A stretch of 64,000 nt of DNA from contig NZ_JASAOF010000003.1 in NCBI RefSeq assembly GCF_029952525.1, forward strand, positions 496,001 through 560,000. The letters are read 5' to 3'. The notes beneath the pieces were generated by a model. It did not search any database. It was not told the origin of the DNA and saw only the letters and a program-made list of their open reading frames with translations. The position numbers were made by a program, and so were the translations under genes. Below, piece after piece: positions 349 to 62,833 of the stretch (position 1 is its first letter; every line of letters starts with the position of its first letter). Source of the stretch: Saccharopolyspora ipomoeae (GTDB taxonomy: Bacteria > Actinomycetota > Actinomycetes > Mycobacteriales > Pseudonocardiaceae).

Positions 349-388
349 CGGGAACCTTCCTGCCGGGGAAGTAGCAGGAAGGTTCCCG
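349..388. repeat. Inverted pair of the GGGAACCTTCCTG element (hairpin)
   Basis: CGGGAACCTTCCTGC at 349-363 and its exact complement at 374-388 form a perfect 15-bp stem with a 10-nt loop. It lies 17 bp beyond the stop of the symporter gene (stop at 405), where a terminator would sit. There is no T-tract. Confidence 0.8.
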
Positions 389-404
389 TTCATCGGTCAG
401 CTGG

Positions 405-1967
405 TCAGTGGGCGCCGATGCCGGTCAGCGATCGGACCTCCATCTCGTCGGTGCGGTCGCCGTCCTCGCGCTCTCCGAGCAGGGTGCCGATGTAGCCGAA
501 CAGGAACGAGGCCGGGATCGACACCAGGCCCGGGTTGTTCAGCGGGAACAAGGCGAAGTCGGCCCAGGGCATCATGGACGACGGGGCGCCCGAGACGACC
601 GGCGAGAAGATCATCAAGAGCAGGCACGTGGCCAGCCCGCCGTACATGCCCCACAAGGTGCCTCGGGTGTTGAACCTCCTCCAGTACAGCGAGAACAGCA
701 GGGTGGAGAGGTTCGCGGAAGCGGCGAAGGCGAACGCCAGCGACACCAGGAACGCGAGGTTCTGACCGTTGACCAGGATGCCGCCGATGATCGACGTGGC
801 GCCGATGATCAACGCCGTCAGCCGGGCCACCCGGATCTCCGAGTCCGGGTCGGCCTGGCCGCGTTTGAAGACGTTGGCGTACACGTCGTGGGCAAAGGAG
901 GCCGACGCGGTCAACGTCAGCCCCGCCACCACGGCGAGGATCGTGGCGAAGGCGACCGCGGCGACCACTCCCAGCAGCACCGTTCCGCCGATGCGGTAGG
1001 CGAGCAGCGGAGCCGCGGAGTTCTCCCCGCCCGGGGCCGACAGGATCGAGTCCGTGCCGCTGACCGCGCCCGCGCCGAAGCCGATCACCAGCGTGCACAG
1101 GTAGAACACGGACATCGTGACCGTCGCCCACACCACCGAACGCCGGGCCTGCAGAGCGTTGGGCACCGTGTAGAACCGCATGAGGACGTGCGGGAGCCCT
1201 GCCACGCCGAGCACCAGGGCCAGCGACATCGAGACGAAGTCGAGCTTGGTGGTCCCATTCTCGCCGTACTGGGCTCCGGGGGCGAAGATCCGCTCGCCGA
1301 GCGGGTTCTTCTCGGCCGCGTGCTGCATCAGGGACGTGATGCTGAATCCGAACTTGCCCATCAGGAACAGGGTCATGAGCGCGACGCAGAGCATCAGCGC
1401 CACGGCCTTGATGATCTGCACCCAGGTGGTTCCCTTCATCCCACCGACGAGCACGTAGACGACCATCAGCGCGCCGACCGCGGCGATCACCAGCGCCTGC
1501 CCGGCCGCGCTGTGCACGTCGAGCAGCAGCGCGACGAGGCTTCCCGCGCCCGCGATCTGCGCGATCATGTAGATGAAGGAGATGACCATGGTCGACACGG
1601 CTGCTGCCGCGCGCACCGGACGCTGGTTCATCCGGTAGCTGAGAACGTCGCCCATGGTGAATCTGCCGGTGTTGCGCAGGAGTTCGGCGATCAGGAGCAG
1701 GTTCACCAGCCAGCCGACCAGGAATCCGATGGAGTAGAGGAATCCGTCGTAGCCGTGCACGGCGATGGCGCCGGCGATGCCGAGGAACGAGGCGGCCGAC
1801 AGGAAATCGCCAGAGAGCGCGATTCCGTTCTGCGCACCGGTGAACTGCGCACCGGCGGCGAAGTAGTCGGTGGTGGAGCCCGCACTGCTCACCCGGTAGA
1901 CGATGTAGAGGGTGACCAGCACGAATGCCGCGAAGATGCTGATGTTGAGCATCGGGTTGGTGTCCAT
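405..1967 (-). CDS. Sodium:solute symporter family protein (acetate/monocarboxylate type)
   Basis: This 520-residue membrane protein of the SSS family resembles cation/acetate symporters such as ActP and MctC. It has about 13 hydrophobic segments. The N-terminal block has SSAGSTTDYFAAGAQFTGAQN, then GIALSGDFLSAASFLGIAG (about residues 49-67), the classic start of ActP-type carriers. VGGMKGTTWVQIIKAVAL lies mid-protein. The likely role is Na+- or H+-coupled uptake of short monocarboxylates across the cytoplasmic membrane. The start overlaps the stop of the DUF485 gene (TAATG), so the two are translationally coupled. DUF485 next to ActP is a well-known pairing. The exact substrate cannot be read from the sequence. 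Confidence 0.9.
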   Translation of the reverse strand: MDTNPMLNISIFAAFVLVTLYIVYRVSSAGSTTDYFAAGAQFTGAQNGIALSGDFLSAASFLGIAGAIAVHGYDGFLYSIGFLVGWLVNLLLIAELLRNTGRFTMGDVLSYRMNQRPVRAAAAVSTMVISFIYMIAQIAGAGSLVALLLDVHSAAGQALVIAAVGALMVVYVLVGGMKGTTWVQIIKAVALMLCVALMTLFLMGKFGFSITSLMQHAAEKNPLGERIFAPGAQYGENGTTKLDFVSMSLALVLGVAGLPHVLMRFYTVPNALQARRSVVWATVTMSVFYLCTLVIGFGAGAVSGTDSILSAPGGENSAAPLLAYRIGGTVLLGVVAAVAFATILAVVAGLTLTASASFAHDVYANVFKRGQADPDSEIRVARLTALIIGATSIIGGILVNGQNLAFLVSLAFAFAASANLSTLLFSLYWRRFNTRGTLWGMYGGLATCLLLMIFSPVVSGAPSSMMPWADFALFPLNNPGLVSIPASFLFGYIGTLLGEREDGDRTDEMEVRSLTGIGAH

Positions 1968-2386
1968 TACGGCCGCTCCTCCCCGGTCGCCTCGCGGTAG
2001 AGGGCATCGGCGCGCGGGTCGATCTCGCCGGCCGCGTAGCGCAGGTAGAGGACCGTGATGACCAGGGTGCTCACGAACTGGGCGATGCCGAAGACCAGAC
2101 CGATGTTGACGGTCCCGAACAGCCGGATCGCCATGAATCCGGGGTAGTACGCGGCGGCGATGACGTAGCCGATGTACCAGAGCAGGAAGATCGCGGTCAT
2201 CGGGAACGTGAACTTGCGCAGCTTGCCGCGCAGTTCACGGAAGTCGTCACTGCGCGCGAGTTCGGGGAAGTCCGGTTCCGGACGACCGAGGTCGGGCAGA
2301 TCGGTGCGCCGGGCGGATTTGTCGATCTGACCGAAGGTCGCTTCGGTCTCCCGCGGGGGCGGCGGGGGTTGGGTGGCGTTGCGCAT
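1967..2386 (-). CDS. DUF485 family membrane protein, partner of the symporter
   Basis: The protein has 139 residues from the ATG at 2386, chosen because GGAAGG lies 4-5 nt upstream; an in-frame ATG at 2416 has no such site. A Pro-rich, polar N-terminus (residues 1-55) is followed by two hydrophobic segments near 70-90 (FPMTAIFLLWYIGYVIAAAYY) and 100-120. The pattern FRELRGKLRKFTFPMTAIF marks DUF485, a family encoded beside acetate symporters, where it is thought to assist the carrier. The function is inferred from this association only. Confidence 0.85.
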   Translation of the reverse strand: MRNATQPPPPPRETEATFGQIDKSARRTDLPDLGRPEPDFPELARSDDFRELRGKLRKFTFPMTAIFLLWYIGYVIAAAYYPGFMAIRLFGTVNIGLVFGIAQFVSTLVITVLYLRYAAGEIDPRADALYREATGEERP

Positions 2387-2758
2387 GCATCCTTCCAAGC
2401 ATTTCGAGCATCGCACCGGCGTGTTCCGCCGATGCTGCGAAGTCCCCCAACTCCGTCCGACCGCCGCAGTCGTTCCCGATCTCCTTCGATCGCGAATTCA
2501 GCAGCGGCCGGTGACCGCACGACCTTGCGATGCCAACCGGGCCGGAGTCTAACGATCAATTCGCATTACCTGGACTACGGCAGCGACACACCACACCTAT
2601 TGATGAATCGAATGATCACTACGCGTGATTGGGGCCGACTCGAAGCCACACCTCCCCGGGTGCCGGACGGCAGCGCAGAGTCCCCCACGATCGGCCCGAT
2701 GAAAACCGTTTTAGCTGATCAACGGCAGAATTAGGCGAGGGTAACACAGGAAGAGCAT

Positions 2759-2773
2759 GGGAACCTTCCTGTC
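2759..2773 (+). repeat. Dispersed GGGAACCTTCCTGTC element, single copy
   Basis: The sequence GGGAACCTTCCTGTC is followed by GTTTTCG. This is one of the few copies not placed after a recognisable upstream gene. A small transcript may end here, or the copy may be a stray. Confidence 0.7.
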
Positions 2774-2789
2774 GTTTTCGCCCACATCG

Positions 2790-7375: not shown

Positions 7376-8008
7376 ATGAATCCTGATACGCAAGCCCGGC
7401 CTGAATCCCCCCGCAGGTCCCCGACCACCACCTCGGCGAAGATCGTCGTCGCCGGTGGTTTCGGCGCAGGAAAGACCACGTTCGTCGGTTCTGTGTCGGA
7501 AATCGTGCCGCTGACCACGGAAGCGGTCATGACCGAGGCCAGTCACGGAATCGACGACCTGCACGCCACTCCGAACAAGCAGACCACGACGGTGGCCATG
7601 GACTTCGGTCGCCTCTCGCTGGATTCGGATCTGATCCTGTACCTCTTCGGAACCCCCGGCCAGCACCGGTTCTGGTTCATGTGGGACGACCTGGTGCGAG
7701 GAGCGATCGGCGCGGTCGTGCTGGTCGACACGCGCCGCCTCGCGGACTGCTTCTCGGCCATCGACTTCTTCGAGGACCGGAAGCTGCCGTACATCGTCGG
7801 CCTGAACTGCTTCGACGGCAACCTGCAGCACCGCGTGCAGGAAGTCCGCGAAGCGATGGCAATCCCCGAGGACGTCCCGATCGTCACCTGCGACGCCCGA
7901 AACAGGGAGTCCACCAAGCAATCCCTGATCCGGCTGGTCGAGTACGCGATGCAGTGGTGGATGCAGCGGCATCCGGAGGAGCAGGGGAACCTTTCTGCCA
8001 CGCGCTGA
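7376..8008 (+). CDS. cvnD: Conservon small GTPase (CvnD)
   Basis: This 210-residue P-loop GTPase has G1 GGFGAGKTT (about residues 27-35), G3-like FGTPGQHRFWFMW, the hydrophobic strand AIGAVVLVDTRR and G4-like NCFDG. This is the MglA/CvnD pattern in which NKxD is replaced. It should bind GTP and act downstream of CvnA/B/C at the membrane. The last seven residues, GNLSATR, are encoded by a copy of the dispersed element (7985-8000), so the C-terminus looks extended or replaced by repeat sequence. A large hairpin follows at 8023. Confidence 0.92.
   Translation: MNPDTQARPESPRRSPTTTSAKIVVAGGFGAGKTTFVGSVSEIVPLTTEAVMTEASHGIDDLHATPNKQTTTVAMDFGRLSLDSDLILYLFGTPGQHRFWFMWDDLVRGAIGAVVLVDTRRLADCFSAIDFFEDRKLPYIVGLNCFDGNLQHRVQEVREAMAIPEDVPIVTCDARNRESTKQSLIRLVEYAMQWWMQRHPEEQGNLSATR
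7985..8000 (+). repeat. Dispersed element inside the 3' end of cvnD
   Basis: GGGAACCTTTCTGCCA differs from the consensus at two positions and encodes part of the last seven residues of CvnD before its TGA. Its orientation is the same as the gene. Confidence 0.75.
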
Positions 8009-10399: not shown

Positions 10400-10441
10400 T
10401 TGGGATCCTTCCTGCCACCTGTGCGGCAGAAAGGTTCCCAA
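10400..10441. repeat. Inverted pair of the dispersed element
   Basis: Arms 10400-10416 (TTGGGATCCTTCCTGCC) and 10425-10441 (GGCAGAAAGGTTCCCAA) pair over 17 positions with two exceptions and an 8-nt loop. The pair starts 10 bp after the stop of the serine hydrolase gene. Confidence 0.8.
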
Positions 10442-11880: not shown

Positions 11881-11897
11881 GTGGCAGGAAGGTTCCC
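11881..11897 (-). repeat. Dispersed element after the CPBP protease gene
   Basis: Read on the minus strand it is GGGAACCTTCCTGCCAC, 11 bp after the CPBP stop and in the same direction as that gene. Confidence 0.8.
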
Positions 11898-12925: not shown

Positions 12926-12966
12926 AGGGGGCCTTCCTGTCATCCGACATGACAGGAAGGCCCCCT
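12926..12966. repeat. Perfect inverted pair of a variant element
   Basis: The 18-bp arms A+GGGGGCCTTCCTGTCAT (12926-12943) and its complement (12949-12966) surround a 5-nt loop. The GGGAACC half is changed to GGGGGCC in both arms, so the stem was kept while the sequence drifted. It lies 20 bp beyond the PBP stop. Confidence 0.85.
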
Positions 12967-12985: not shown

Positions 12986-15184
12986 TCACGGAGTTGGTGC
13001 TCCGGGCTGCGGAGCTTGCGCGGGCGGTGCCGCCGGTGTGCCCGGGAGGGGCACGGTCGGCAGACCGTTGTGGATCTTCGTCATCGCGTCGAACCAGGTG
13101 CGCGCGGGCACCTTGCCGCCGTAGATGTTGCCGTCGCCGCACAGGTACGGCGGTGAGTCACCGCCACCGTCGCAGATGCCTTGGGGCCGCTTGCCATCGG
13201 AGTAGGTCAGCACCGCGCCCGCCATCTGCGGGGTGGCGGCCAGGAACGCGGCGGACTTGTGCTCCTGGGTGGTGCCGGTCTTGCCGATCATCGGACGCGC
13301 CCACTGAACCGCCTGCGCCGCTGCGCGGGAGGTTCCCTCGGTGTCGTCCTTGCTGAGCCCTTGCGCCAGCCCGGTCGCCACCGCCGGCGACACCGCCTGC
13401 TCGCAGCCGGGCTCGTTGAGCGTGACCGGGTTGCCGTAGCGGTCCTTGACCTCCTCGATCGGCGTCGGCGGGCAGTAGACGCCGTCGCTCATGATCGTGG
13501 CGGCGACGTTGGACAGCTCCAGCACGCTGGTCGGGGTGAAGCCGAGGGTGAAGGACCCGTTGTTGCGGTTCTTGATGGAGTCGCCCAGCGACGGCCCGTT
13601 CGACCCGTCGTCCTTGAGCGTGGATCCCAGCGCGTTGACGCCGTTGATGCTCTTGCGCATGCCGAGCTTGGCGGCCATGTCGACGGCGTTGTTCAGCCCG
13701 ACGCGTTCCAGCAGCGCCACGAATCCGGTGTTCGGGGATGTTGCCAGCGCCATCTGCAGGGTGCGCGGTCCGGGCCGGACGCCTTCGGCGTTGTGCACGG
13801 TGTAGGGCGCCAGACCGTTCTTGTAGACGCGCGAGGTGTAGCTGGCGGGCACGTCGATCGTGTCGTAGATGTCCATGCCGCGTTCGAGCGCGGCCCCGGC
13901 GGTGAAGATCTTGTAGATCGACCCGGCGCCGAAGGGCTGCACTCGGCTGACGATGTCGTAGGCCGTCTGCCCCTTGCTGGGGTCATTGCCGAAGTCGCGG
14001 TTGGCGACCAGTGCTCGGACCTTGTGCTTGTCCTTGCCGGGTTCGACGACCGACATCGCGTTGGCGATGCCCTCGGTCTGGGTCGGGACCTGCTTCTGGG
14101 CGGCCTGCTTGGCCGCGTCGGAGGCGGTGCGGTCGAGCGTGGTGCGCACCGTGTACCCGCCGACCTTCAGCTGGTCGGTGTCGATCCCGTAGCGCTCGAG
14201 GTAGTCGCGGACGTAGGTGCAGAAGAAGCCGTCGGTGGTGCCGTCACCGATGCCGACGCAGCCGTTCGGCGGGCGCCCCAGCGGGGAGAGCACGCCCAGG
14301 GGCTCCTGCTTGGCGATCTCGGCGTCTTCCTTGGTGATGCGGATGTCGTTGTTGCTGTCCGCCATCAGGTCGATGACGAGGTTGCGCCGGGCGAGCGCGT
14401 CCTGCGGGTTGCTGTTGGGGTTCAGCGATCCGGGCTGGTTGACGACCGCGGCCAGCAGCGCGGACTGGGCGATCGTCAGCTTGTCCGGGGTGGTGCCGAA
14501 GTAGGTTTGGGCGGCCGCTCCGACGCCGAAGGTCTGGTTGCCGAAGGGCACCACGTTGAGATAGCCGGTGAGGATCTCTTCCTTGGACATCGTGCGTTCG
14601 AGCTCGACGGCGATCTTGGCTTCGCGGAGCTTGCGCGCGATCGTCGTTTCCTTGGCCTGCTCGGCCTCGAGCTCGTTGGTGGCCGTGACGTGCACCAGGT
14701 AGTTCTTCACGTACTGCTGAGTGATCGTCGACGCGCCCTGGGCGGTTTCACCGCTGCCGATGTTGGTGGCCAGGGCCCGGATGGTGCCGTGCCAGTCGAC
14801 GCCGCCGTGGTGCCAGTAGCGCTTGTCCTCGACCGCGGTGATGGCGGCCTTCATCGTGTCGGCGATCTGGTCCGGGCGGGTTTCGACCCGGTAGTCCTTG
14901 AAGAAGTAGGCGATGGGTTTGCCGTTGCGATCGGTGACGGTGGACACCTGCGGCATTTCCTGCTTTGCCAGCGAACTCGACATTTTCGACATGGCATGGG
15001 TGGTCTGGTTGACCATCGCCCCAGCCCCGGTCGCCACCGGCAGCAGTAATGCCGCCACGAGTACGCCGGCAAGGACGCACAGTCCGAACATCTTCAACAG
15101 CACGCCGCTGCGCACGCCAGCCCCTATCACCAAAGTGTCCGCAAGATCCGGCCACCGACCGCGGGACGCGGCGCACATCCGCAC
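12986..15184 (-). CDS. Bifunctional penicillin-binding protein (GT51 + transpeptidase)
   Basis: The protein has up to 732 residues. The GTG at 15184 is the longest start; the ATG at 15178 has better spacing from GGGAG. A membrane anchor lies at about 30-55. The GT51 glycosyltransferase has EDKRYWHHGGVDWHGTIRA (about 118) and QGASTITQQYVKNYL. The transpeptidase has SxxK in GAGSIYKIFTAG (about 420), SxN as SPNTGF, and KTG in GKTGTTQEHKSAAF (about 634). It should polymerise and cross-link peptidoglycan outside the membrane. A Pro/Ala tail ends the protein. It lacks a PASTA domain, so it is closer to PonA1-type than PonA2-type enzymes. It is monocistronic. Confidence 0.93.
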   Translation of the reverse strand: MRMCAASRGRWPDLADTLVIGAGVRSGVLLKMFGLCVLAGVLVAALLLPVATGAGAMVNQTTHAMSKMSSSLAKQEMPQVSTVTDRNGKPIAYFFKDYRVETRPDQIADTMKAAITAVEDKRYWHHGGVDWHGTIRALATNIGSGETAQGASTITQQYVKNYLVHVTATNELEAEQAKETTIARKLREAKIAVELERTMSKEEILTGYLNVVPFGNQTFGVGAAAQTYFGTTPDKLTIAQSALLAAVVNQPGSLNPNSNPQDALARRNLVIDLMADSNNDIRITKEDAEIAKQEPLGVLSPLGRPPNGCVGIGDGTTDGFFCTYVRDYLERYGIDTDQLKVGGYTVRTTLDRTASDAAKQAAQKQVPTQTEGIANAMSVVEPGKDKHKVRALVANRDFGNDPSKGQTAYDIVSRVQPFGAGSIYKIFTAGAALERGMDIYDTIDVPASYTSRVYKNGLAPYTVHNAEGVRPGPRTLQMALATSPNTGFVALLERVGLNNAVDMAAKLGMRKSINGVNALGSTLKDDGSNGPSLGDSIKNRNNGSFTLGFTPTSVLELSNVAATIMSDGVYCPPTPIEEVKDRYGNPVTLNEPGCEQAVSPAVATGLAQGLSKDDTEGTSRAAAQAVQWARPMIGKTGTTQEHKSAAFLAATPQMAGAVLTYSDGKRPQGICDGGGDSPPYLCGDGNIYGGKVPARTWFDAMTKIHNGLPTVPLPGTPAAPPAQAPQPGAPTP

Positions 15185-15404
15185 TCCCGCTCACCGATCC
15201 CAGCGGTCGGAAAGAACCACCGGCTTCCGCTGCGCGGAAGCAATCGGCATCGTTTCGCTTTGCCGTCAACCAGTTCGTTGATATCACACCCGGCCGCGTG
15301 GCCCGCGTGCTGCCGAACAACTGAATTCGACTTGAAATCGACACGGAGCAGGGCCTGATCACTACACTTCGTGACAGATTGGTTCCCTTGCTCGCGGAGG
15401 AAAG

Positions 15405-16355: not shown

Positions 16356-16372
16356 GTGACAGGAAGGTTCCC
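16356..16372 (-). repeat. Dispersed element directly after the MFS stop
   Basis: The minus strand reads GGGAACCTTCCTGTCAC, a perfect consensus copy beginning 4 bp after the stop codon of the MFS gene and in its direction. Confidence 0.85.
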
Positions 16373-18933: not shown

Positions 18934-18949
18934 TGACAGGAAGGTTCCC
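18934..18949 (-). repeat. Dispersed element between convergent genes
   Basis: A perfect minus-strand GGGAACCTTCCTGTCA, about 85 bp beyond the stop of the minus-strand gene at 19035 and downstream of that gene's terminator hairpin. Confidence 0.8.
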
Positions 18950-22037: not shown

Positions 22038-22105
22038 GGGAACCTTCCTGCCATCACCGCGCCCGCGGGCGGTGGCCGGACCGGTGCGAGGGAACCTTCC
22101 TGCCA
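22038..22105 (+). repeat. Two direct copies of the dispersed element after the TetR gene
   Basis: GGGAACCTTCCTGCCA occurs at 22038-22053 and again at 22090-22105, both in the direction of the TetR gene that ends at 22013. The spacer can pair locally (CCGCGCCCGCGGGCGG). Confidence 0.85.
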
Positions 22106-27120: not shown

Positions 27121-27182
27121 GGGAACCTTTCGTTCACCTTCCCCCCGCAGCGGCGCGCGGCAACTCGGCAGGAAGGTTCCCC
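27121..27182. repeat. Two divergent copies of the dispersed element
   Basis: GGGAACCTTTCGTTCA at 27121-27136 (plus) and, on the minus strand, GGGGAACCTTCCTGCC at 27167-27182. The second lies after the glcF terminator and in the direction of glcF. Confidence 0.7.
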
Positions 27183-31398: not shown

Positions 31399-31489
31399 GA
31401 GGTGGACAAGATGCGCGTGCTCACCCCGAGTGTGCCCGAATATGCACTTCACAGACGATCTCCGCAGGGCGGCGCCGCCCCGGAGACGT

Positions 31490-31504
31490 GGAAGAAAGGT
31501 TCCC
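31490..31504 (-). repeat. Diverged dispersed element after the MpaB-like gene
   Basis: The minus strand reads GGGAACCTTTCTTCC, 13 bp after the stop at 31518 and in the same direction as the gene. Confidence 0.65.
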
Positions 31505-32367: not shown

Positions 32368-33528
32368 TCACCCTCCCGTCACCAGCACCGGCACCAGCTG
32401 CTCGGCGGCGGTCAGCGACCCGTGGTGGCCCCGCAACGCCGACTCCCCCGGCTCGACCGCGGAACGGATCACCCCGCCGGTGCGCATGATCGCCAGCACG
32501 TCGCCGATGCGCGGTGCCACCTCCGCCGACACCGGGCCGAAGTAGCCCTCGTCGATCGCCTGCTCGCCGGTCATCACCGCACCGGCCGGACCGACGGTGT
32601 CCCGCCAGGCGGCGAGCACGTCGCCTCGCGCACCCGCCCGCGCGTAGACGTGGCGGACGCGCACCTCTCCGCCGAGCAACCGGACCCCTTCGCTCAGCGC
32701 GGGATCGCTGTCGGCGTCGATCGCCTCGGCAGGGTCGAGGTCGACCATGCCGTGGTCGGCCACGACTCCGAGCACCGCTCCCGGCGGGAGCGCTTCGGCG
32801 ATCATCCGCACGAACGCGTCGACCTGCCGCAACTGCATGCGCCACGGGACCGACCCCGGCCCGTGGACGTGTCCCAGCAGGTCAACGCCCCCGTGGTAGC
32901 CGTAGCAGAGGGTCGGTCCGGGGCTCTCGGCTGCGGCGAGGAGCTCGGCGGCGAGATCGCCCAGCTCCCGCACGCCCCGGAACCGGCCGCCGCGCAGCGA
33001 GGCCCGGGTCAGACCGGTGCCCTCGAAGTGCGGCGGCACGGCGGTGCGCACGTCCACGCCCGCGGCCACGGCGCGTTCCAGAACGGTGGTGTGCGGCTGC
33101 ACCTGCTCGGGAGGCCACTTCTCGATCAGGCTGCTGCGCTCGTCGTCGGCACCGCCGGGGGCGCTGCGCGCCGTCCAGCTCAGGGGGTGCAGCAGCCCGC
33201 CGCCCGGTTCGGCGAAGGTGTAGCCGACGAGCCCGTGCTCGCCCGCGCACCGGCCGGTGGCCAGCGAGGTGATGCTGGTGACGGTGGTGGTGGGGAACCC
33301 CGCTGTCAGCGGCGGCGTGGTCTGCAGGCTCGACAGGAACGGGGCATCGACAGCGTGCTCGCGCAGCAGTTCGTGGCCGAGCCCGTCGACGAGCAGCACC
33401 AGGGCGTTGCGGCACGGCGGGATGCCGATGGTGTCGGTGAAGCCCTCGACGCCCATCGCGGACAGCATCGAGGGCAGGACGTCGCGCAGCGCGCGACCGC
33501 TGGGATCGGGGGCGACGATCCAGTCCAC
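32368..33528 (-). CDS. Alkaline-phosphatase-superfamily protein (nucleotide pyrophosphatase-like)
   Basis: The protein has 386 residues. The metal/nucleophile motif is NALVLLVDGLGHELL, with the nucleophile Thr in GFPTTTVTSITSLATG (about 98-113). A second metal site appears as YGYHGGVDLLGHVHG (DxxGHxxG) and VLGVVADHGMVDLDP. This fits the phosphodiesterase/nucleotide-pyrophosphatase branch. It has no signal peptide. It is paired with the MpaB-like gene. Confidence 0.85.
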   Translation of the reverse strand: MDWIVAPDPSGRALRDVLPSMLSAMGVEGFTDTIGIPPCRNALVLLVDGLGHELLREHAVDAPFLSSLQTTPPLTAGFPTTTVTSITSLATGRCAGEHGLVGYTFAEPGGGLLHPLSWTARSAPGGADDERSSLIEKWPPEQVQPHTTVLERAVAAGVDVRTAVPPHFEGTGLTRASLRGGRFRGVRELGDLAAELLAAAESPGPTLCYGYHGGVDLLGHVHGPGSVPWRMQLRQVDAFVRMIAEALPPGAVLGVVADHGMVDLDPAEAIDADSDPALSEGVRLLGGEVRVRHVYARAGARGDVLAAWRDTVGPAGAVMTGEQAIDEGYFGPVSAEVAPRIGDVLAIMRTGGVIRSAVEPGESALRGHHGSLTAAEQLVPVLVTGG

Positions 33529-34767: not shown

Positions 34768-34788
34768 AGGAAGGGAACCTTCCTGTCA
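34768..34788 (+). repeat. Dispersed element with its own mini-hairpin
   Basis: A perfect GGGAACCTTCCTGTCA (34773-34788) is preceded by AGGAAG, so AGGAAGG-GAA-CCTTCCT can fold by itself. This copy is opposite to both flanking genes, an exception to the orientation rule. Confidence 0.8.
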
Positions 34789-38342: not shown

Positions 38343-38395
38343 GAGCACGGGAACCTTCCTGTCATTCCGGCTGGAGCACGGGAACCTTCCTGCCA
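38343..38395 (+). repeat. Tandem pair of the dispersed element
   Basis: GAGCACGGGAACCTTCCTG occurs twice with a 31-bp period (38343 and 38374); the copies continue as TCA and CCA. Both are co-directional with the truncated AMP-binding gene just upstream. Confidence 0.9.
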
Positions 38396-40197: not shown

Positions 40198-40213
40198 TGA
40201 CAGGGAGGTCCCC
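40198..40213 (-). repeat. Degenerate dispersed element after sdaA
   Basis: The minus strand reads GGGGACCTCCCTGTCA, 21 bp beyond the sdaA stop and co-directional. A partial copy (GGGGGAACCTTCGA) lies at about 40138-40151. Confidence 0.6.
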
Positions 40214-40234: not shown

Positions 40235-41590
40235 TCAGCATTCGATGACGTTGACGGCCAGGCCGCCGCGCGCGGTCTCCTTGTACTTGACCGACATGTC
40301 GCGACCCGTCTCCCGCATCGTCTTCATGACCTTGTCGAGGGACACGTAGTGCGTGCCGTTGCCCCGCAGGGCCATGCGCGCGGCGGTGATCGCCTTGACC
40401 GATGCGACCGCGTTGCGCTCGATGCACGGGATCTGCACCAGCCCGCCGATGGGATCGCAGGTGAGCCCGAGGTTGTGCTCCATCGCGATCTCGGCGGCGT
40501 TCTCCACCTGCTCTGGCGTGCCGCCCAGCACCTCCGCCAAACCGGCCGCCGCCATCGAGCAGGCCGAGCCGACCTCGCCCTGGCAACCGACCTCGGCACC
40601 GGAGATCGAGGCGTTCTCCTTGAACAGCACCCCGATCGCCCCTGCCGTCAGCAGGAATCGCACCACACCGTCCTCATCGGCACCGGGGACGAAACGGGCG
40701 TAGTAGTGCAGAACGGCGGGAACGATGCCGGCCGCGCCGTTGGTCGGAGCCGTCACCACGCGCCCGCCCGCCGCGTTCTCCTCGTTGACCGCCAGCGCGA
40801 ACAACGTGACCCACTCCAGCGGGTCGTCGCGGTCGGTCAACGACGCCAACAGCTGCGCCGCGCGCCGCCGCACCTTCAACCCGCCCGGCAGCTCACCGGT
40901 GTTGCGGCACCCGTTGTCGACGCATTCCCGCATCACCCGCCAGATGTCGAGCAGCCCCGCGCGGACGGCCGGCTCCTCGCGCCACGACAGCTCGTTGGCC
41001 AGCATGACCCCGCTGATCGGCAAACCAGACCCGGTGCTGTGCAGCAGCAGATCGGCCCCGGTGCGGAAGGGCATGGGAACCTTCGTGTCATCGGCCTTGA
41101 CCCGATCCGCCCCGGCAGCGTCCTCGTCCACGACGAAACCGCCACCGACCGAGTAGTAGATCGCCGAGTCGAGCTCCCCTCCGTCGTTGCCGAGGGCGGT
41201 GAACCGCATCCCGTTGGGATGCTGCGGCAACGACTTGCGCCGGTGCAGCACCAGATCGCGCGCAACGCTGAAGGGCAGCACCTGGTCGCCGCCGAGCCGC
41301 AACATGCCGCTGCGCTCGATCTCGTCGACGCGCTCCGCGCCGGCCACCGGGTCCACCGCCTCCGGGCGGTTCCCCTCGAGCCCGAGCACCACGGCTCCCG
41401 GGCTGCCGTGACCGTGACCGGTCGCGCCGAGAGAACCGAACAACTCCGCTTTGACCTTGTTGACCTGGGAGATCACGCCGTTCTCGCGCAGCCTGACGGT
41501 GAACCGCTGCGCAGCGCGCATCGGCCCCACGGTGTGCGAGCTGGACGGACCGATTCCCACCGAGAACAGGTCGAAGACACTGATCGCCAT
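40235..41590 (-). CDS. sdaA: L-serine ammonia-lyase (serine dehydratase)
   Basis: The protein has 451 residues in the single-chain iron-sulfur form. The N-terminal domain has [16 protein letters not shown] (about 11-26). The alpha domain has the Cys residues expected for a [4Fe-4S] cluster: the CVDNGCRN region, [17 protein letters not shown], and [17 protein letters not shown]. It converts serine to pyruvate and ammonia. It begins 31 bp after gcvH and shares its glycine riboswitch leader. An element-like sequence lies within the gene at 41072-41087 (residues DDTKVPMP). Confidence 0.95.
41072..41087 (+). repeat. Element-like sequence inside sdaA
   Basis: GGGAACCTTCGTGTCA differs by one base from the consensus. 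It is antisense to sdaA and encodes part of the peptide ADDTKVPMP, so it is in frame and tolerated. Confidence 0.55.
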
Positions 41591-41621: not shown

Positions 41622-41993
41622 CTACTCGTTGATCAAGTCGGAGTACTGCTGGGCCGTGAGGGTCGCACCGGTCTCGGTGACGCGCACCTCGATCAGCCAG
41701 CCCTCGCCGTAGGGGTCGGAGTTGACCACGGCCGGGTCGTCGACCGCGGCTTCGTTGATGGCCACGACCTCACCGGTGACGGGTGCGAACAGGTCGCTGA
41801 CGGACTTGGTCGACTCGAGCTCACCACACGCCTGACCGGCCTCGATCTTGTCGCCGACCTCGGGGAGCTGCACGAAGACGATGTCGCCGAGGGCGCTGGC
41901 GGCGTGCTCGGTGATGCCGACGCGGGAGATCTCGCCGCGGTCCTCGATCCACTCGTGCTCTTCGGTGTAGGCCAGGTTGGTGGGCAGCGTCAT
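41622..41993 (-). CDS. gcvH: Glycine cleavage system H protein
   Basis: The 123-residue protein has the lipoyl-attachment Lys in [19 protein letters not shown] (about 63). It carries the aminomethyl arm between the P, T and L proteins. Start [15 protein letters not shown] at 41993. It lies directly under a tandem glycine riboswitch. Neither gcvT nor gcvP is in this window. Confidence 0.96.
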
Positions 41994-42046
41994 GAGGGAG
42001 GCTCCAAAGCGGTTTCGAGGGGCGTTGATCCCCGGTTTCGGCTGGG

Positions 42047-42232
42047 CCTCCCCCTCTGTTGCGGAACCTGAGAGCTTCGCCGCGGCGGCGGCTTGCACCG
42101 TGGGTGGCACGTCTGCGTCGACGAGCGCTTTCCAGAGTCGCCTCGCCCGAGCGGTCGTGGGTGCCTGAGAGTTTGCTGGGGAGTGTTGCTCCTTCGGCGC
42201 CCTGCGCTGCTGGCAGGGTCTCTCCCGCACGG
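42047..42232 (-). promoter_or_regulatory. Tandem glycine riboswitch upstream of gcvH-sdaA
   Basis: In transcript order, aptamer 1 (about 42160-42232) shows GTGCGGGAGAGACC, GCCGAAGGAGCAA and CTCTCAGGCA. Aptamer 2 (about 42051-42145) shows GACTCTGGAAAGC, a GC-rich variable arm and GAAGCTCTCAGGTTCCG followed by AACAGAGG. These are the conserved blocks of the glycine (gcvT) riboswitch, in tandem. About 55 nt separate it from the gcvH start. No clear terminator stem was seen, so translational or activating control is likely. Confidence 0.92.
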
Positions 42233-42346
42233 GGTCGATGGCCGGTATGCGATTGTCGATGTGCTCAGCAACGATAAACGCGCCAGCGGCACTGTCAATG
42301 CACATGTGATCTCCGCCGGTGCGTCTTGGTCGAGGAGGCCCCTTCG

Positions 42347-43920: not shown

Positions 43921-43936
43921 GGGAACCTGTCTGTCA
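43921..43936 (+). repeat. Dispersed element after the PucR gene
   Basis: GGGAACCTGTCTGTCA (one mismatch) lies 20 bp after the stop, co-directional. Confidence 0.75.
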
Positions 43937-45182: not shown

Positions 45183-45213
45183 CTTCGGCCGGGTCGATCG
45201 CGCCTCGGGGTTG

Positions 45214-45269
45214 CGCGAAAGGTTCCCCTCCTCGCAGCCCCGCCGGTCTTCGTTGACAGGAAGGTTCCC
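45214..45269 (-). repeat. Two minus-oriented dispersed elements downstream of ald
   Basis: A partial copy lies at 45214-45228 (minus GGGGAACCTTTCGC) and a perfect copy at 45254-45269. Both are opposite to ald and to the XRE gene, an exception to the orientation rule. Confidence 0.75.
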
Positions 45270-51321: not shown

Positions 51322-51388
51322 GGAAGGGAACCTTCCTGTCATCCCGCACGGGCTGCGGGCGAAATGACGGGAAGGTTCCCTTCCTCAC
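51318..51388. repeat. Long inverted pair of the dispersed element
   Basis: The 25-nt arms 51318-51342 and 51364-51388 pair with a single G-U. Each contains GGGAACCTTCC(T/C)GTCA flanked by GTGAGGAA, and the left arm includes the stop codon of the permease gene. This is the longest hairpin built from the element in the window. Confidence 0.9.
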
Positions 51389-51457: not shown

Positions 51458-54400
51458 GTGAGCGACTCCGAGAATCCCCGCCGTTCCTCCGGCGGCTGGA
51501 TCCGTCGCCTCTTCGCCGCATGTCGGCGCCACCCGGTCGCGTTGACGTTGGCGATGGGCGCCTCCGTGACCGCAGTGGGGCTGGAGGCGCTGGTTCCGCT
51601 GCTGACCAAGCTCGCGGTCGACGACGCGGTGGCCCGCAGCACCGAACGGCTGTGGTGGATCGTGCTCGTGCTGCTGGTGCTGGGGGTGTTCCGGTTCGCG
51701 GCCGCGTTCGTCCGCCGCTACAGCGCCGGACGCCTGGCCTTGGACGTGCAGCACGACCTGCGGCGGGCGGTGTTCGCCGCGATGCAGCGGCTCGACGGGG
51801 GCAAGCAGGACGCGCTCCGCACCGGCCAGGTGGTGTCGCGGTCGATCAGCGACCTGCAGCTGGTGAACTCGCTGCTGTCGATGCTGCCGCTGGCGGCGGG
51901 CACCGCGGTGCTGGCGGTGTTCGCGATCGCGGCGATGCTGTGGCTGTCCCCGCTGCTCACGGTGGTTGCCTTGATCGTCGCGCCGCTGATCGCGGTCGTC
52001 TCGGCGCGCAGCAAGAAGCGGTTGTTCCCGGCGACCTGGTCGGCTCAGCAACGCGCGGCCGACATCGCCCAGCACGTCGAGGAGACCGTCACCGGCGTGC
52101 GCGTGGTCAAGGGCTTCGGGCAGGAGGAACGGGAGGTCTCCCGGCTGGAGACGCGGGCGCGGCGGCTGTTCGCCGCGCGGCTGCGCGCGGCCCGCATGAC
52201 CTCGCTCCCGGCCGCGAGTCTGGCGACGCTGCCGTCGGCCGGTCAGGTCGGCGTGCTCGGCCTGGGCGGCTGGATGGTGCTGCAGGACCAGGTGAGCTTG
52301 GGAACCTTCGTGGCATTCGCCGGCTACGTGGCGATGCTGTCCGGCCCGGCCCGCATGCTCTCCAGCGTGATGATCCAGGCCCAGCTGGCGCGGGCCGGGG
52401 TCGAGCGCATCCACGAGCTCACCGACTCCCAGCCCGAGGTCGAGGAGAAGCCCGACGCCCGCAGCCTGCCCGAGGGGCCTCTGGAGGTCCGCCTCGACGA
52501 GGTCGGGTTCGGCTACACCCGCGATCAGCCGGTGCTGCGGGACGCGACGTTGCGGGTCCGCCCGGGCGAGACGGTGGCGTTGGTGGGGCCGGCCGGATCG
52601 GGCAAGTCGACGGTGTCGCTGCTGCTGCCCCGCTTCTACGACGTGCACTCGGGCCGCGTCGCGATCGCCTCCGCTGACACCGGGGAGACCTTCGACCTCC
52701 GCGACCTGCGGCTGGATTCGCTGCGCGGCGCGGTGGGCGTGGTCTTCGAGGAAGCGTTCCTGTTCTCCGACACCATTCGCGGCAACATCGCCTACGGCCG
52801 CGCCGACGCGAGCGAGGAGGACGTGATCGCGGCGGCGAAGGGCGCGGAGGCCCACGAGTTCATCTCCGCCCTCCCGGACGGGTACGACACGACCGTCGGC
52901 GAGCGGGGTCTGACGCTGTCCGGGGGCCAGCGGCAGCGGGTGGCGCTGGCCAGGGCCCTGCTGTCGAACCCCCGGGTGCTGGTGCTCGACGACGCGACCT
53001 CGGCGGTCGATCCGGCGACCGAGGCCGCCATCCACGACACGCTGCGGTCGGTGACAGCGCAGCGCACGACTCTGCTGATCGCGCACCGGCGCTCGACGCT
53101 GGCGCTGGCCGACCGGATCGCGGTGCTCGACGGGGGACGCGTCGTGGACGTGGGCACCGAGAGCGAGCTGCGGGAGCGGTGCGAGCTGTTCCGGTCGTTG
53201 CTGGCCGGTCCCGGCGAGACCATCGACGAGCCGCACGACGGTGGGGCGGACGTGTCCCCCGACGACATCACCCCGGAGCTGTGGCGACGGGAGGAGCAGC
53301 CCGCGGATGAGGTGACGGGAACCTCCGTGTCAACGCCGGGCAGGCACGGCATGGGTGAGGGGTCCGTTCCTCCCACTCCGGAGTTGGTCGAGGGCATTCG
53401 CGCGTTGCCGCCGGCGAGCGATCTGCCTCGGGTGCGGGGAACCGATCCGACGGCGCCCGACCCGCAGTTCCGGCTGGCGCGCCTGCTGCGGCCGATCCGG
53501 TGGGGGTTGGTGCTGACGGTCGCCCTGGTCGCCGGGGACGCGTTGACCTCGGTGCTGCTGCCGTCGCTGGTGCGGCACGGCATCGACAGCGGTGTCGGGA
53601 CCGGCAACGTCGACACGTTGTGGCTGGCCACGGGCCTGGCGGCGGTGCTGGTGGCCGGTGGCTGGCTGGTGATCAAGCTGCAGACGGTGATCACCGCCCG
53701 CACCGGCGAGACCCTGCTCTACGTGCTGCGGTTGCGCAGCTTCGCGCACCTGCAGCGGTTGGGCCTGGACTTCTACGAGCGGGAGCTGGCCGGGCGGATC
53801 ATGACCCGGATGACCACGGACGTCGATGCGCTGTCGTCGTTCTTGCAGACGGGTTTGGCGACGTTCGTGGTGAGCGTGCTGACGTTGCTGGGCATCGCGG
53901 GCGCGCTGCTGTTCACCGACCCGTCGCTGGCGCTGGTGGCGATGGCGGTGCTGCCGGTGCTGGTGGTGGCCACGATCGTGTTCCGCAGGGTCTCGTCGAC
54001 GGCTTACGCCGAGGCGCGGGAGCGGGTCAGCACCGTCAACGCCGACCTGCAGGAGAACGTCTCGGGTATGCGGGTCGCCCAGGCCCACCGCCGCGAGGGC
54101 CACGCCGCGACGGTGTTCGCGCAGCGCAGCGATGCTTATCGGCGTTCGCGGCTGCGGGCTCAGCGCTACATCGCCACGTACTTCCCGTTCGTGGCGCTGC
54201 TGTCGGAGATCGCGCAGGCCGCGGTGCTGGGAGTGGGGGCGACGCGGGTCGCTTCGGGTGAGCTGACGGCCGGCGTGCTGGTCGCCTTCCTGCTGTACCT
54301 GGGGTTGTTCTTCTCGCCGGTGCAGCAGCTGTCCGGTGTGTTCGACGCCTACCAGCAGGCTCGTGTCGGGTTGCGGCGCATCGGCGAGCTGCTGCGCACG

Positions 54401-55232: not shown

Positions 55233-55328
55233 GGGAACCTTCCTGTCACCCCGGGTCCGCGAGGGGAGCGCTACTTCTGGGTCACCGCGAGGTCGCCGAC
55301 GGGTGTGAGGAGGGGAACCTTTCTGTCA
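55233..55328 (+). repeat. Two direct copies of the dispersed element after the ABC gene
   Basis: GTGAGGAGGGGAACCTT-CTGTCA occurs at 55225-55248 (including the stop codon) and again at 55305-55328, an 80-bp period. Both are co-directional with the gene. Confidence 0.9.
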
Positions 55329-59428: not shown

Positions 59429-59440
59429 TCTCCACGGCTG

Positions 59441-59523: not shown

Positions 59524-59539
59524 GGGAACCTTCCGCTCA
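59524..59539 (+). repeat. Dispersed element after kgd
   Basis: GGGAACCTTCCGCTCA (two mismatches) lies about 95 bp after the kgd stop, beyond its terminator and co-directional. Confidence 0.7.
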
Positions 59540-59815: not shown

Positions 59816-59819
59816 GCCG

Positions 59820-59856: not shown

Positions 59857-59860
59857 ACGT

Positions 59861-60826
59861 TCAGGGGCGCAGCACGGCGCGCCCGGAGATCTCGCGTCGT
59901 TCGATGGCCGCGTGGGCGTCGGCGACCTCCTCCAGCGGGAAGCTGCCGCCGATGGCTGGGGTGATGCGTCCCGCGGCGGCCTCGGCCAGGGCCTTGCGGA
60001 GCAGGTCCAGACGCCGCTCGCGCGTGGCGTGCTGGATGTCGAGGAGCCCGGTGACGGTCACGCCGCGCCGACCGGCCTCGGTGGTGTCGATGTCGGCGAA
60101 GTCGCCGTCGGAGGCACCGTAGGCGATGACGCGCCCACCGTCGCCGACGGCGCGGAACGCGTCGCGACCGTAGTGCCCACCGGCTCCGTCGAAGAGGACG
60201 TCGACTCCCCCGGTCAGGTCGCGGACCCGTTCCGCCCAGTCCGGTGCGCCGTAGTCGACTGGCTCGGCGCCGAGTGCGCGCACGCGGCCGAGCTTCTCGT
60301 CACCGCGCGCCGCACCGATGACGTGCGCTCCCGCGGCGGCGGTGAGTTGGACGATGATGGACGCCGCTCCCCCGGCGGCCGCGGCGACGAGCACTTTCTC
60401 CCCCGGTCGCACGGCCGCGTGGTCGGCGAGTTGCAGGGCTGTGACCGCGTCGTGCAGCAGCACCGCGGCCGCCTGCTCGTCGAGCCCGTCGGGGACCACC
60501 ACGAGTTCGCCGGTGGGGACGGCGACGAGTTCGGCGCAGGTGCCGCTGTTCTCGGTGCTGGCGACGACGGTCTTGCCCAGCCACGCCGGGTCGACGCCCT
60601 CGCCGAGCGCGACCACGTCCCCGGCCACGCCGTCGCCGGGGACGTAGGGCGGGTTCATGTCGAAGTATTCGCGTCCCCACCCCTGGCGGAGCTTGGTGTC
60701 GAGGAACAGCACGTCCACGGCTGCCATCTTGACCAGGACTTCTCCGGCTCGTGGTTCGGGGTCGGGTCGTTCGATCACCGACAGGACTTCCGGTCCGCCG
60801 AACTTCGTCACCTGCACCGCTCGCAT
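59861..60826 (-). CDS. NADPH:quinone oxidoreductase-like MDR protein
   Basis: The protein has 321 residues. The medium-chain reductase motifs are VTKFGGPEVLSVIE at the N-terminus and the NADPH loop AAAGGAASIIVQLTAAAG (about 150). No zinc-ligand Cys cluster is present, so it is the quinone-oxidoreductase (zinc-independent) type. It probably reduces quinones or enals. Monocistronic; start MRAVQVTKFGG. Confidence 0.85.
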   Translation of the reverse strand: MRAVQVTKFGGPEVLSVIERPDPEPRAGEVLVKMAAVDVLFLDTKLRQGWGREYFDMNPPYVPGDGVAGDVVALGEGVDPAWLGKTVVASTENSGTCAELVAVPTGELVVVPDGLDEQAAAVLLHDAVTALQLADHAAVRPGEKVLVAAAAGGAASIIVQLTAAAGAHVIGAARGDEKLGRVRALGAEPVDYGAPDWAERVRDLTGGVDVLFDGAGGHYGRDAFRAVGDGGRVIAYGASDGDFADIDTTEAGRRGVTVTGLLDIQHATRERRLDLLRKALAEAAAGRITPAIGGSFPLEEVADAHAAIERREISGRAVLRP

Positions 60827-60903
60827 TTTCGATCACTCCGCTCTCGGTCGACTGCACCCACCCTCGGACTTCGAGTTAGCTGGAGGTCAAGGGGATTTTT
60901 CGA

Positions 60904-61596
60904 TCAGCAGCAGCGCTGCCCGCGCCAAGCCTGCCGACCTTCGTTGACGGCGACCGCCGCGATGATCAGCGCCACCACCGGGTCGGCCCACGACCAGCCG
61001 AGGAGGCTGTTGAGTACCAGTCCGAGCAGCAGCACCCCGGACAGGTAGGTGCACAGCAGGGTCTGCTTCGAGTCGGCGACGGCGCTGGCCGATCCCAGTT
61101 CCCGGCCCGCCCGCCGTTGCGCGGTGGACAGCAGCGGCATGATCACCAGTGATAGGGAAGCGACCACGATTCCGGCCGTGGAGTGCTCGGCGGAGCCGGC
61201 ACCGAGCAGGGAGCGAACGGATTCGACCGCGACGTAGGCGGCGAGCGCGAAGAACGACACGGCGATGACCTTCAGCGCGGTGCGCTCGCGGGCTTCGGGG
61301 TCGGTTCCGGAGAACTGCCAGGCGACGGCTGCGGCGGAGGCGACCTCGATGACCGAGTCGAGGCCGAATCCGATCAGCGCGGTGGAGGACGCGGCGGCCC
61401 CGGCGGCGATGGCCACGACGGCTTCGATCACGTTGTAGGTGATCGTCGCTGCCACCAACCAGCGGATCCGTCGCTGCAGGGAGAGACGTCGGGGTTCGGC
61501 GATCGTGGTCGCTGAGGGCGCCCGAGAGCGGTCGGCGCAGCACGGGTCTGCGCAGGTGTCCTTGCTGGCCCGCCGGGAGGCCGGGTCGTCACTCAT
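60904..61596 (-). CDS. Cation diffusion facilitator family transporter
   Basis: The protein has 230 residues with six membrane segments. The CDF pattern is IGFGLDSVIEVASAAAV (Asp of helix 2) with a second Asp in VADSKQTLLCTYLSG. Cys-rich ends (CADPCCADRS; RGQRCC) are unusual and could bind the metal before export. Its start overlaps the ArsR stop by 8 nt, so the two are coupled and the metal specificity probably matches the sensor. Confidence 0.87.
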   Translation of the reverse strand: MSDDPASRRASKDTCADPCCADRSRAPSATTIAEPRRLSLQRRIRWLVAATITYNVIEAVVAIAAGAAASSTALIGFGLDSVIEVASAAAVAWQFSGTDPEARERTALKVIAVSFFALAAYVAVESVRSLLGAGSAEHSTAGIVVASLSLVIMPLLSTAQRRAGRELGSASAVADSKQTLLCTYLSGVLLLGLVLNSLLGWSWADPVVALIIAAVAVNEGRQAWRGQRCC

Positions 61597-61945
61597 GCCG
61601 ACCTCCGTCGGGGAGCGCCTCGACGCCGTAGTTCGGGCAGAGCGCCGCGGCGTTGCCGGTGGCGGCCAGGAGGGACTCAGCCGAGGCCAGCAGGTCGATC
61701 AGTTCGGGCCTGGCCAGGGAGTAGAACACCTGCCTGCCCTGCGGGCGACCGTCGACGAGGCCGCAGTCGCGCAGGCACGCGATGTGCGCCGACACCGTCG
61801 ACTGGGCCAGGCCGAGCCGGCCCACCAGGTCGGCGACCCGGGCTTCACCTTCAGCGAGGTGCCGCACGATGGCCAGCCGAGTGCCGTCGGAGAGGCTGTG
61901 GAACAGGGCCACGGCGGAGTCGACTCCGGCCTGATCGATCGTCAT
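61589..61945 (-). CDS. ArsR/SmtB family metal sensor, CmtR-like
   Basis: The protein has 118 residues. The winged helix is VADLVGRLGLAQSTVSAHI; the metal site is CLRDC (Cys57 and Cys61) plus Cys103 in AALCPNYG. Mycobacterial CmtR uses Cys57, Cys61 and Cys102 for Cd(II)/Pb(II), so this is probably a cadmium/lead sensor that derepresses the transporter downstream. The start appears leaderless: -10 TATCAT lies 6 nt before ATG. Confidence 0.88.
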   Translation of the reverse strand: MTIDQAGVDSAVALFHSLSDGTRLAIVRHLAEGEARVADLVGRLGLAQSTVSAHIACLRDCGLVDGRPQGRQVFYSLARPELIDLLASAESLLAATGNAAALCPNYGVEALPDGGRHE

Positions 61946-61946
61946 A

Positions 61947-61972
61947 CGACGATGATAGCGCTCTTCGACGAT
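61947..61972 (-). promoter_or_regulatory. CmtR-like promoter and direct-repeat operator
   Basis: On the minus strand the -10 TATCAT (61952-61957) is flanked by two copies of ATCGTCG (61966-61972 and 61947-61953) spaced 19 bp apart. The spacing fits a dimer footprint covering the promoter. Confidence 0.5.
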
Positions 61973-61979
61973 ACATTGA

Positions 61980-62792
61980 TCAACCGAGGCGCTGCGCGCA
62001 CGCGAGCTGGGTCAGGTAGCGCTTGGTGATGGTGCCGCCGCCCTCCTCGACGCAGCGTCCGATGCAGGTCAGGAGCTGCTCGCGCGCCGACTCCGGCATC
62101 GCCCGGTGACCCGAGTAGGTCATCAGCAGATCCAGGTACTGCTCTTCCGCGTAGGCCACCTCCCACTCGTAGCGGTGGAACTCCGGTCGGCTGAACCGGC
62201 CCGAGCGGTAGAACTCCTCCGGATCCTGAGCGATCTCGTCCGCGGTGGGGAGGCGCCGCCCGGGTTCGGTGAGGGGGTCGAACCGCTCGTAGCAGCGCTG
62301 GATCCGGGTGAAGGACTCCTCGCTGCCACCCGCGATGTGGTGCGTCGACACCACCGCCAGGACGCCTCGCGGACGCAGCGCGTCGGCGGCCTTGACCATG
62401 CGCAGCGCGGGGTCGAGCCAGTGGAACGAGGTCGCGGCCACCACGAGGTCGAACCCGACCGGCGGCAGCGCCCAGGTCTCGAAGTCCTCGACGACGACCC
62501 GAGCCGAGGGGTAGTCGTCCAGGTGCTCCCGGGCGATCTTCGCCATCTCCTCGCTCCGGTCGAGCGCGGTCAGCGCGAAACCCCTGCCCGCCAGCGGCAC
62601 GCTCGCCTGCCCGGTGCCGCAGCCGATCTCGAGAACGCGGGCCCCTTCACCCACCGCGGCCGTGAGCACGTCGAACACCTGCGACGGATACCCCGGACGG
62701 CACCGGTCGTAGCGCTCGGCGTCCTCGCCGAACACCGAGCGCAGCCGCTCGCGGTCGCTCACCGAGCCATGTCCGAACCGCAGGCCATGCAC
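61980..62792 (-). CDS. Class I SAM-dependent methyltransferase
   Basis: The protein has 270 residues. Motif I is VLEIGCGTGQASVPLAGRGF (about 53-72), motif II LTALDRSEEM, and motif IV FDLVVAATSFHWLDP. The type-11 methyltransferase fold continues to the end. The exact substrate is unknown. A shorter start (SDRERLRSVFG) is possible. Confidence 0.85.
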   Translation of the reverse strand: MHGLRFGHGSVSDRERLRSVFGEDAERYDRCRPGYPSQVFDVLTAAVGEGARVLEIGCGTGQASVPLAGRGFALTALDRSEEMAKIAREHLDDYPSARVVVEDFETWALPPVGFDLVVAATSFHWLDPALRMVKAADALRPRGVLAVVSTHHIAGGSEESFTRIQRCYERFDPLTEPGRRLPTADEIAQDPEEFYRSGRFSRPEFHRYEWEVAYAEEQYLDLLMTYSGHRAMPESAREQLLTCIGRCVEEGGGTITKRYLTQLACAQRLG

Positions 62793-62817
62793 GCAGTGTA
62801 CGAAGGGGCGGCGGTGT

Positions 62818-62833
62818 TGACAGGAAGGTTCCC
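62818..62833 (-). repeat. Dispersed element after hutI
   Basis: Perfect minus-strand GGGAACCTTCCTGTCA, 19 bp after the hutI stop and co-directional with it. Confidence 0.85.

Follow-up and report, generated by a model that had tools for sequence, protein, structure and literature searches.

Few motifs are confined to a single chromosomal domain, and the best known of them is matS in the terminus of Escherichia coli. The matS motif is 13 bp long and occurs in 23 copies in the Ter region, and the same article describes SlmA sites, which are 12 bp long, number 50 and are absent from Ter (PMC3116907). Here we analyzed a stretch of 64,000 nucleotides from Saccharopolyspora ipomoeae (the window; positions 496001-560000 of contig NZ_JASAOF010000003.1, referred to as C33) and a short repeat within it. 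The conserved element of this repeat is a 16-bp core, GGGAAC(C/T)TT(C/T)CTG(T/C)CA, of which GGGAAC is almost invariant. An initial annotation made from the window had proposed an oriented element at the 3' ends of genes. Our results show that the motif is almost wholly restricted to one chromosomal domain, with few copies outside it and with one genome (G233) that has no such block, and we suggest that it provides address sites for a putative domain-organizing protein.

The window holds 33 matches to GGGAACCTTCCTGTCA at up to three mismatches, compared with a mean of 0.41 and a maximum of 3 in 100 shuffles, which bears out the annotated number of about 30 copies. It lies wholly inside the motif domain, which covers about 288-579 kb of C33. 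Exact copies number 36 in the 6.63-Mb genome, and 31 of these are found on C33 at 326-577 kb. To score copies we used a weight matrix built from five genomes, with a score of at least 20 defining a strong copy, and a reversed control. All 97 strong copies on C33 fall within 280-580 kb, with none in the first 280 kb and none past 580 kb, and the reversed control gave no hits. Because almost all copies lie in the C33 block, what had been taken for a 3'-end element is a domain element rather than a genome-wide one; the confinement had been missed because only 64 kb were seen, and none of the three readings offered (a terminator, an RNA-processing or RNA-binding-protein site, or a small mobile element) explains it. 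Two satellite groups of copies stand apart from the block, one at 20-37 kb of contig C17 (L019), in a cluster of putative glycosyltransferases and LytR-CpsA-Psr proteins as read from the translations, and the other at 94-106 kb of contig C10.

The same confinement is seen in relatives (G numbers denote genomes). In Saccharopolyspora rosea 55 of 56 copies lie in 203 kb (5.478-5.681 Mb) of a 6.56-Mb genome, in G013 40 of 42 lie in 166 kb (3.836-4.002 Mb) of 4.83 Mb, and all 52 copies of G101 lie in 112 kb (1.087-1.200 Mb). All 20 copies of Saccharopolyspora spinosa are within 190 kb of one scaffold (54-243 kb), and 69 of the 73 copies of Saccharopolyspora flava are within 318 kb of one contig (630-948 kb), the other 4 being on another contig. 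The copies of G120, among the matches listed, are at 5.293-5.425 Mb. G233 is the exception, with 6 matches on 6 contigs. Across genomes the array comprises some 20 to 140 sites in roughly 110-320 kb, and in S. rosea and G013 a dense stretch of about 157 and 124 kb, respectively, is joined by a lone group 42-46 kb beyond it.

parS sites, which are bound by ParB, are likewise conserved DNA palindromes that cluster in one region. They differ from this motif in sequence and in place: in S. rosea, G013 and G101 the parS clusters are at the record ends, 0.8-1.2 Mb from the block, and the block is mid-arm. The sign of the GC skew changes near 500 kb of C33, but with parS 0.8-1.2 Mb off in these three complete genomes we rejected an origin or terminus at this place. 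The terminus of S. rosea was located at about 3.2-4.0 Mb from eight sampled stretches, away from its block, and a pattern search for a dif site found nothing convincing. The genes of the domain are ordinary core genes, including rho, nucS and urocanase, and judging by gene order and conservation an ATP synthase operon may also belong to it.

When 297 genomes from the family were scanned with up to one mismatch allowed, at least 42 copies were found in 20 of the 22 genomes of the window's genus (its own included), the remaining two being G233 with 11 and G256 with 2. The motif had been suggested as worth seeking in related genera, and five genomes of two other genus groups carry at least 42 copies (G013; G101, G120, G137 and G153). 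All remaining genomes have at most 5 copies each. Among the matches listed, the named multi-copy carriers are all Saccharopolyspora species, and single matches occur in unrelated bacteria. When C33 genes were mapped by tblastn to the regions of relatives, 97 fell in the S. rosea block and 82 in the G013 block in largely the same order, 91 mapped to the G101 region with rearrangements, and three copy-bearing contigs of G145 matched C33 at 384-447, 451-522 and 523-567 kb. As this synteny indicates, the motif blocks of S. rosea, G013, G101 and G145 are orthologous to the domain of the window. S. rosea and G013 have the left edge of the block at a shared place, in the interval flanked by the orthologs of own|20 and own|23 (genes of the window's genome), and the copies of the window's genome extend about 120 kb further left. 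G046 and G256 have most of the domain genes and lack the array: the matrix gave 0-2 hits in their equivalents of about 503-583 kb of C33, and other fetched parts held no core match in G046 (C33 380-484) and one in G256 (C33 441-506).

Individual sites are also shared between species. The window's genome and G145 have 63 comparable gaps (40 bp or longer in each), of which 18 are occupied in both and 38 empty in both (p = 2e-10), with 7 occupied only in the former and none only in G145; p ranged from 0.0001 to 0.11 in the other nine genome pairs. Since orthologous gaps share occupancy across species, many copies must be old, and within such gaps copy number and orientation change between genomes. 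At 485.7-495 kb of C33 (L015) the genes are largely without orthologs in the compared domains, yet in-gene copies are found at 488168 and 491541.

Constraint was assessed in one species pair, the window's genome and S. flava, whose fetched stretches are 90-94% identical to C33 in alignment. The sites were picked from the sequence of the window's genome alone, so that neutral divergence should be close to that of the flanks. Across 28 intergenic sites the core differs at 24 of 448 bases (5.4%), with no gap, compared with 185 of 1482 (12.5%) in the flanks (p = 8e-6). The core of nine in-gene sites differs at 3 of 144 bases (2.1%), compared with 99 of 1251 (7.9%) nearby (p = 0.007). Phase-matched windows in the same genes gave an expectation of 10.4 substitutions for these nine sites, where 3 were observed (P = 0.015), and of 6.0 for the five sites with a score of at least 20, where none was observed (P = 0.004). 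By this alignment, the 16-bp core is apparently constrained at the DNA level, whatever the strand or coding state. Strong copies in coding sequence number 15 in 260 kb inside the block and none in 242 kb outside it, and 8 were found at 400-580 kb of C33 against a single hit in 20 codon-order shuffles. The residues encoded at strong coding sites are often unlike those of orthologs, and the sites are mostly free of indels.

The copies in the window are given below by window position. The 15 coordinates in the initial annotation are correct to within one base, and its five inverted pairs and its three exceptions to placement behind a gene in gene direction (2759, 34773 and 45254) were all recovered.

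350..387: inverted pair (350 plus, 372 minus), behind an SSF symporter gene.
2759..2774, plus: single copy in a divergent gap.
7985..8000, plus: in-gene copy in the last codons, with the stop codon directly afterwards.
10402..10439: inverted pair (10402 plus, 10424 minus).
11882..11897, minus: single copy, 10 bp past the stop of an Rce1-like (CAAX protease) gene.
12927..12965: inverted pair (12927 plus, 12950 minus), both arms with a GGGGGCC variant, a matching change from arm to arm; S. flava has the variant at the plus copy, and the minus copy was not recovered there.
13322..13337, minus: weak copy (score 14.0) within a penicillin-binding-protein gene, identical in S. flava.
15372..15387, minus: weak copy with 3 mismatches in a divergent gap.
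16357..16372, minus: exact copy, 4 bp past the stop of an MFS gene.
18934..18949, minus: exact copy in a convergent gap.
22038..22105, plus: direct repeat of two copies (22038 and 22090, 52 bp apart) following a TetR-type gene.
27121..27181: inverted pair (27121 plus, 27166 minus) with a degenerate plus arm.
31489..31504, minus: single copy with 3 mismatches, same sequence in S. flava.
33293..33308, plus: weak match with 3 mismatches in a gene, missed by the weight matrix and probably due to chance.
34773..34788, plus: exact copy; the flanking genes run in the opposite direction.
38349..38395, plus: two direct copies (38349, 38380), 31 bp apart.
40198..40213, minus: degenerate copy; two strong copies occupy this place in S. 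flava.
41075..41090, plus: in-gene copy, antisense, indel-free against the five orthologs shown and unchanged in S. flava.
43921..43936, plus: degenerate copy, 20 bp past the stop of a PucR-type regulator gene; the S. flava copy is stronger.
45212..45227, minus: degenerate copy adjoining the exact copy at 45254.
45254..45269, minus: exact copy behind an alanine dehydrogenase gene, in opposite orientation.
51326..51380: inverted pair (51326 plus, 51365 minus); the 75 nt containing it have an RNA fold of -61.7 kcal/mol.
52300..52315, plus: in-gene copy in an ABC-transporter gene; its constraint is partly coding because the encoded residues are kept in relatives.
53317..53332, plus: weak in-gene copy in the ABC-transporter gene, with 2 differences in S. 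flava.
55233..55328, plus: two direct copies (55233, 55313) in the gap between the ABC-transporter gene and a 2-oxoglutarate dehydrogenase-type gene.
59524..59539, plus: degenerate copy behind the 2-oxoglutarate dehydrogenase-type gene.
62818..62833, minus: exact copy, 19 bp past a stop codon.

The sole Rfam match in the window at gathering thresholds is a glycine riboswitch (RF00504). Its tandem aptamers (59.5 and 36.1 bits) occupy 42046-42237 on the minus strand and lie upstream of a gene at 41622-41993.

By consensus the core sits in a near-palindrome of 25-27 bp, GTGAG(C/G)AAGGGAACCTTCCTGTCAC in Saccharopolyspora and GTGACAGTAAGGGAACTTTCCTGTCAC in G013. Head-to-head pairs with a 4-bp spacer number 21 in S. 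rosea, 32 in G013, 22 in G101 and 10 in G145; the pairs of the window's genome, 6 in all, are spaced by 6 bp. In its short dyad form, its many copies in one domain and its putative recognition at the DNA level, the motif resembles matS as described in PMC3116907. The consensus unit also shares the outer GTGA...TCAC with matS, which may be chance as these bases are unconstrained here. The differences from the matS of that description are a constrained core of 16 bp, tens to more than 100 copies in about 110-320 kb, and a mid-arm place in Actinobacteria, mostly behind genes. The motif is not matS itself, as the 13-bp terminus motif GTGACRNYGTCAC differs from the core with its GGGAAC start and the array is mid-arm. 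Membership of the MatP/matS system cannot be claimed, as only the motif is known here, it differs, and its place is mid-arm. The SlmA sites in the account of PMC3116907 are likewise palindromic and domain-biased, but they are excluded from one domain, whereas this motif is nearly confined to one. The transcriptional macro-regions of Saccharopolyspora erythraea are a further likeness, being large-scale domains in the same genus; these divide into core and non-core regions with transposable sequences at their boundaries, and the main text of the article does not contain the word "motif" (PMC3610266). A literature search, with subscription papers mostly outside reach, returned neither this motif nor any domain-confined motif for Saccharopolyspora.

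We consider that the repeat most plausibly represents DNA address sites of one chromosomal domain for a putative domain-organizing protein, on a principle like that of MatP and matS, and we put the probability of this at just under one half. A sequence-specific protein would bind the core, and pairs and tandem copies would raise its occupancy. The protein would then bridge, compact or position the mid-arm region, in the way that MatP acts on the E. coli terminus through matS. According to the gene calls made in this analysis, which also underlie the placement counts for the window, 94 of 119 copies are intergenic (C33 from 280 kb, C17 and C10), and only 13% of C33 at 280-580 kb is intergenic sequence. 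Gaps longer than 100 bp in the window's genome are occupied in 25 of 53 co-directional, 5 of 7 convergent and 11 of 28 divergent cases. The position of most sites behind genes might reflect poor tolerance of them in promoters and coding sequence, and where genes are packed a few sites might have arisen within coding sequence. Protein sites in DNA fit better than an RNA element because of the indifference to strand, the constraint within genes and the confinement to a domain.

Several points weigh against such address sites. We know of no need for them in a mid-arm domain. Strong copies also occur outside the block, with 10 hits on C17 and 6 on C10. The outer parts of the unit are no better conserved in S. 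flava than the flanks (37 of 225 bases differ in the left nine positions and 21 of 111 in the right four), and a dimer on the full palindrome is therefore unsupported in this lineage. Conversion between sites could also lower the divergence of the core, and the lineage-specific flanks and spacers described below suggest copying or conversion. Encoded amino acids changed at 4 of 10 positions compared with 9 of 91 for three in-gene sites (p = 0.02), at 4 of 17 compared with 12 of 145 for five sites (p = 0.07) and at 6 of 35 compared with 27 of 303 for 11 sites (p = 0.13), and the excess of changes at conserved residues is thus weak and no more than suggestive. Helical phasing of copies was seen only in the window's genome, and even spacing was not general across genomes. 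Among the genes of the domain, none tracks the motif convincingly across motif-bearing and motif-poor genomes, with G256 only partly covered in this search, and a search for ParB_N gave one match in each of seven genomes and no second ParB. The closest candidate for the factor, the boundary gene own|23, was rejected: it matches TPR weakly, and a DNA-binding domain was not detected in it (G256 is not covered for this gene).

REP and REPIN sequences are dispersed over the extragenic space of the genome. Such dispersal is not seen here, although palindromic units and head-to-head dimers are. The likeness extends to the size of REP, BIME and REPIN palindromes (20-40 bp) and to their frequent place downstream of genes, with some inside genes; the GTAG or CGTC tag and the RAYT are lacking here, and confinement to a domain is not described for REPs in the account we draw on (PMC3733652). 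A Y1 transposase was detected in none of the four motif-bearing genomes tested and in all three motif-poor ones (G046, G079 and G256), a pattern that is possibly due to chance. With no Y1 transposase in the motif-bearing genomes tested, we reject RAYT-driven REPs, and a RAYT/REPIN form of the small mobile element first suggested is not supported.

The strongest rival to address sites is a locally spreading repeat, in which a small palindromic element or template switching copies itself nearby, so that a lineage-specific family fills and homogenizes the region. It holds this place because consensus, flanks and spacer vary by lineage (the spacer is CATG in S. rosea and CCGG in G013 and G101), which indicates that copying or conversion also shapes the array. 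Spreading would also account for the tandem unit arrays of G101 (C1 1,096-1,179 kb, L190-L194), where 32 of 44 same-strand neighbor distances are exactly 29 bp, and for the near-perfect palindromes of G013, where 10 of 31 pairs can pair at all 25 positions. At several positions the two arms of a pair match more often than chance predicts, copy numbers differ between orthologous gaps, and a mostly foreign 30-kb stretch of S. rosea (C1 5,553-5,583 kb, L153-L155) has only one weak copy. Within that stretch there is one ortholog of own|111, and a motif pair lies directly behind its last gene. However, in-gene copies in conserved proteins are free of indels and constrained, occupied orthologous gaps are common to species, no REP-type transposase was seen in the four motif-bearing genomes, and a local process alone fails to explain why the same orthologous block is used in several genus groups. 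On balance we regard a locally spreading repeat as unlikely.

Rather less likely still is that the repeats are transcription terminators or mRNA 3' stabilizers, with pairs or units folding in RNA at the ends of transcription units. In co-directional gaps of five genomes, 202 of 257 copies are closer to the upstream stop than to the downstream start, so the 3'-side preference noted in the initial annotation stands, and co-directional gaps of at most 40 bp in the window's genome are all empty (0 of 45). Three paired sequences, one of them a consensus, fold better than shuffles (z -5.2, -10.0 and -11.3). A lone unit, however, folds weakly (-10 kcal/mol), and the likeness between arms does not exceed chance at core positions 11-13. 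At 85 pairs in four genomes there was no T-tract after the stem: no flank had 5 or more T, and the mean past the stem was 1.05-1.61 T per 10 nt, compared with a background of 1.41-1.62. We therefore rejected the intrinsic terminator class, although individual paired copies may have a terminator role. Divergent gaps longer than 100 bp are occupied in 24 of 114 cases in five genomes, copies exist within genes, and the same genes in G046 and G256 manage without the motif. Orientation argues against termination as well, since unpaired copies over five genomes run with the genes in 33 gaps and against them in 25 (p = 0.36; 78 and 69 by copies), as expected of DNA sites.

A site for RNA processing or for an RNA-binding protein, oriented at 3' ends as first proposed, is very improbable: within the window 11 co-directional gaps with unpaired copies follow the gene direction and 2 do not, the bias that the initial annotation had noted, and 19 of 30 copies (up to two mismatches to GGGAACCTTCCTGYCR) do lie less than 100 bp after a stop in the same direction, with 4 of the 30 inside genes, but the direction rule fails over the five genomes, G101 has 16 copies in the same and 30 in the opposite orientation, and antisense in-gene copies are unchanged in S. 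flava.

Other origins were considered and rejected. A mobile island does not fit the gene content, as an initial set of 20 window genes is unremarkable (transporters, a penicillin-binding protein, acyl-CoA metabolism, a 2-oxoglutarate dehydrogenase-type gene and alanine dehydrogenase) and most domain genes have syntenic orthologs, also in motif-poor genomes where covered. Since the domain genes are syntenic core genes, a superintegron attC array was discounted without being tested separately. Searches for a phage or plasmid source (one pair pattern in viral contigs, one G013-type pair against phages and one window pair against plasmids) gave no match or only two weak ones. The outlying copies were also considered as operators of regulator genes, but the neighboring genes, judged by their translations, encode a putative RNA methyltransferase, putative glycosyltransferases, LCP-type proteins and a phosphatase-like protein.

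For the Actinobacteria, address sites of this kind may point to a chromosome-organization system in which a dense array marks out a mid-arm domain lying some 1 Mb away from oriC (with rho, nucS and the 2-oxoglutarate dehydrogenase-type gene), is bound by a putative protein, is kept across three genus-level groups and is absent with all its sites in some members. We offer this wider proposal tentatively, with the balance somewhat against it. If it is true, bacteria mark domains other than the origin and the terminus. The motif would then be a direct bait for finding the protein, and the relatives with and without the motif would provide a natural comparison.

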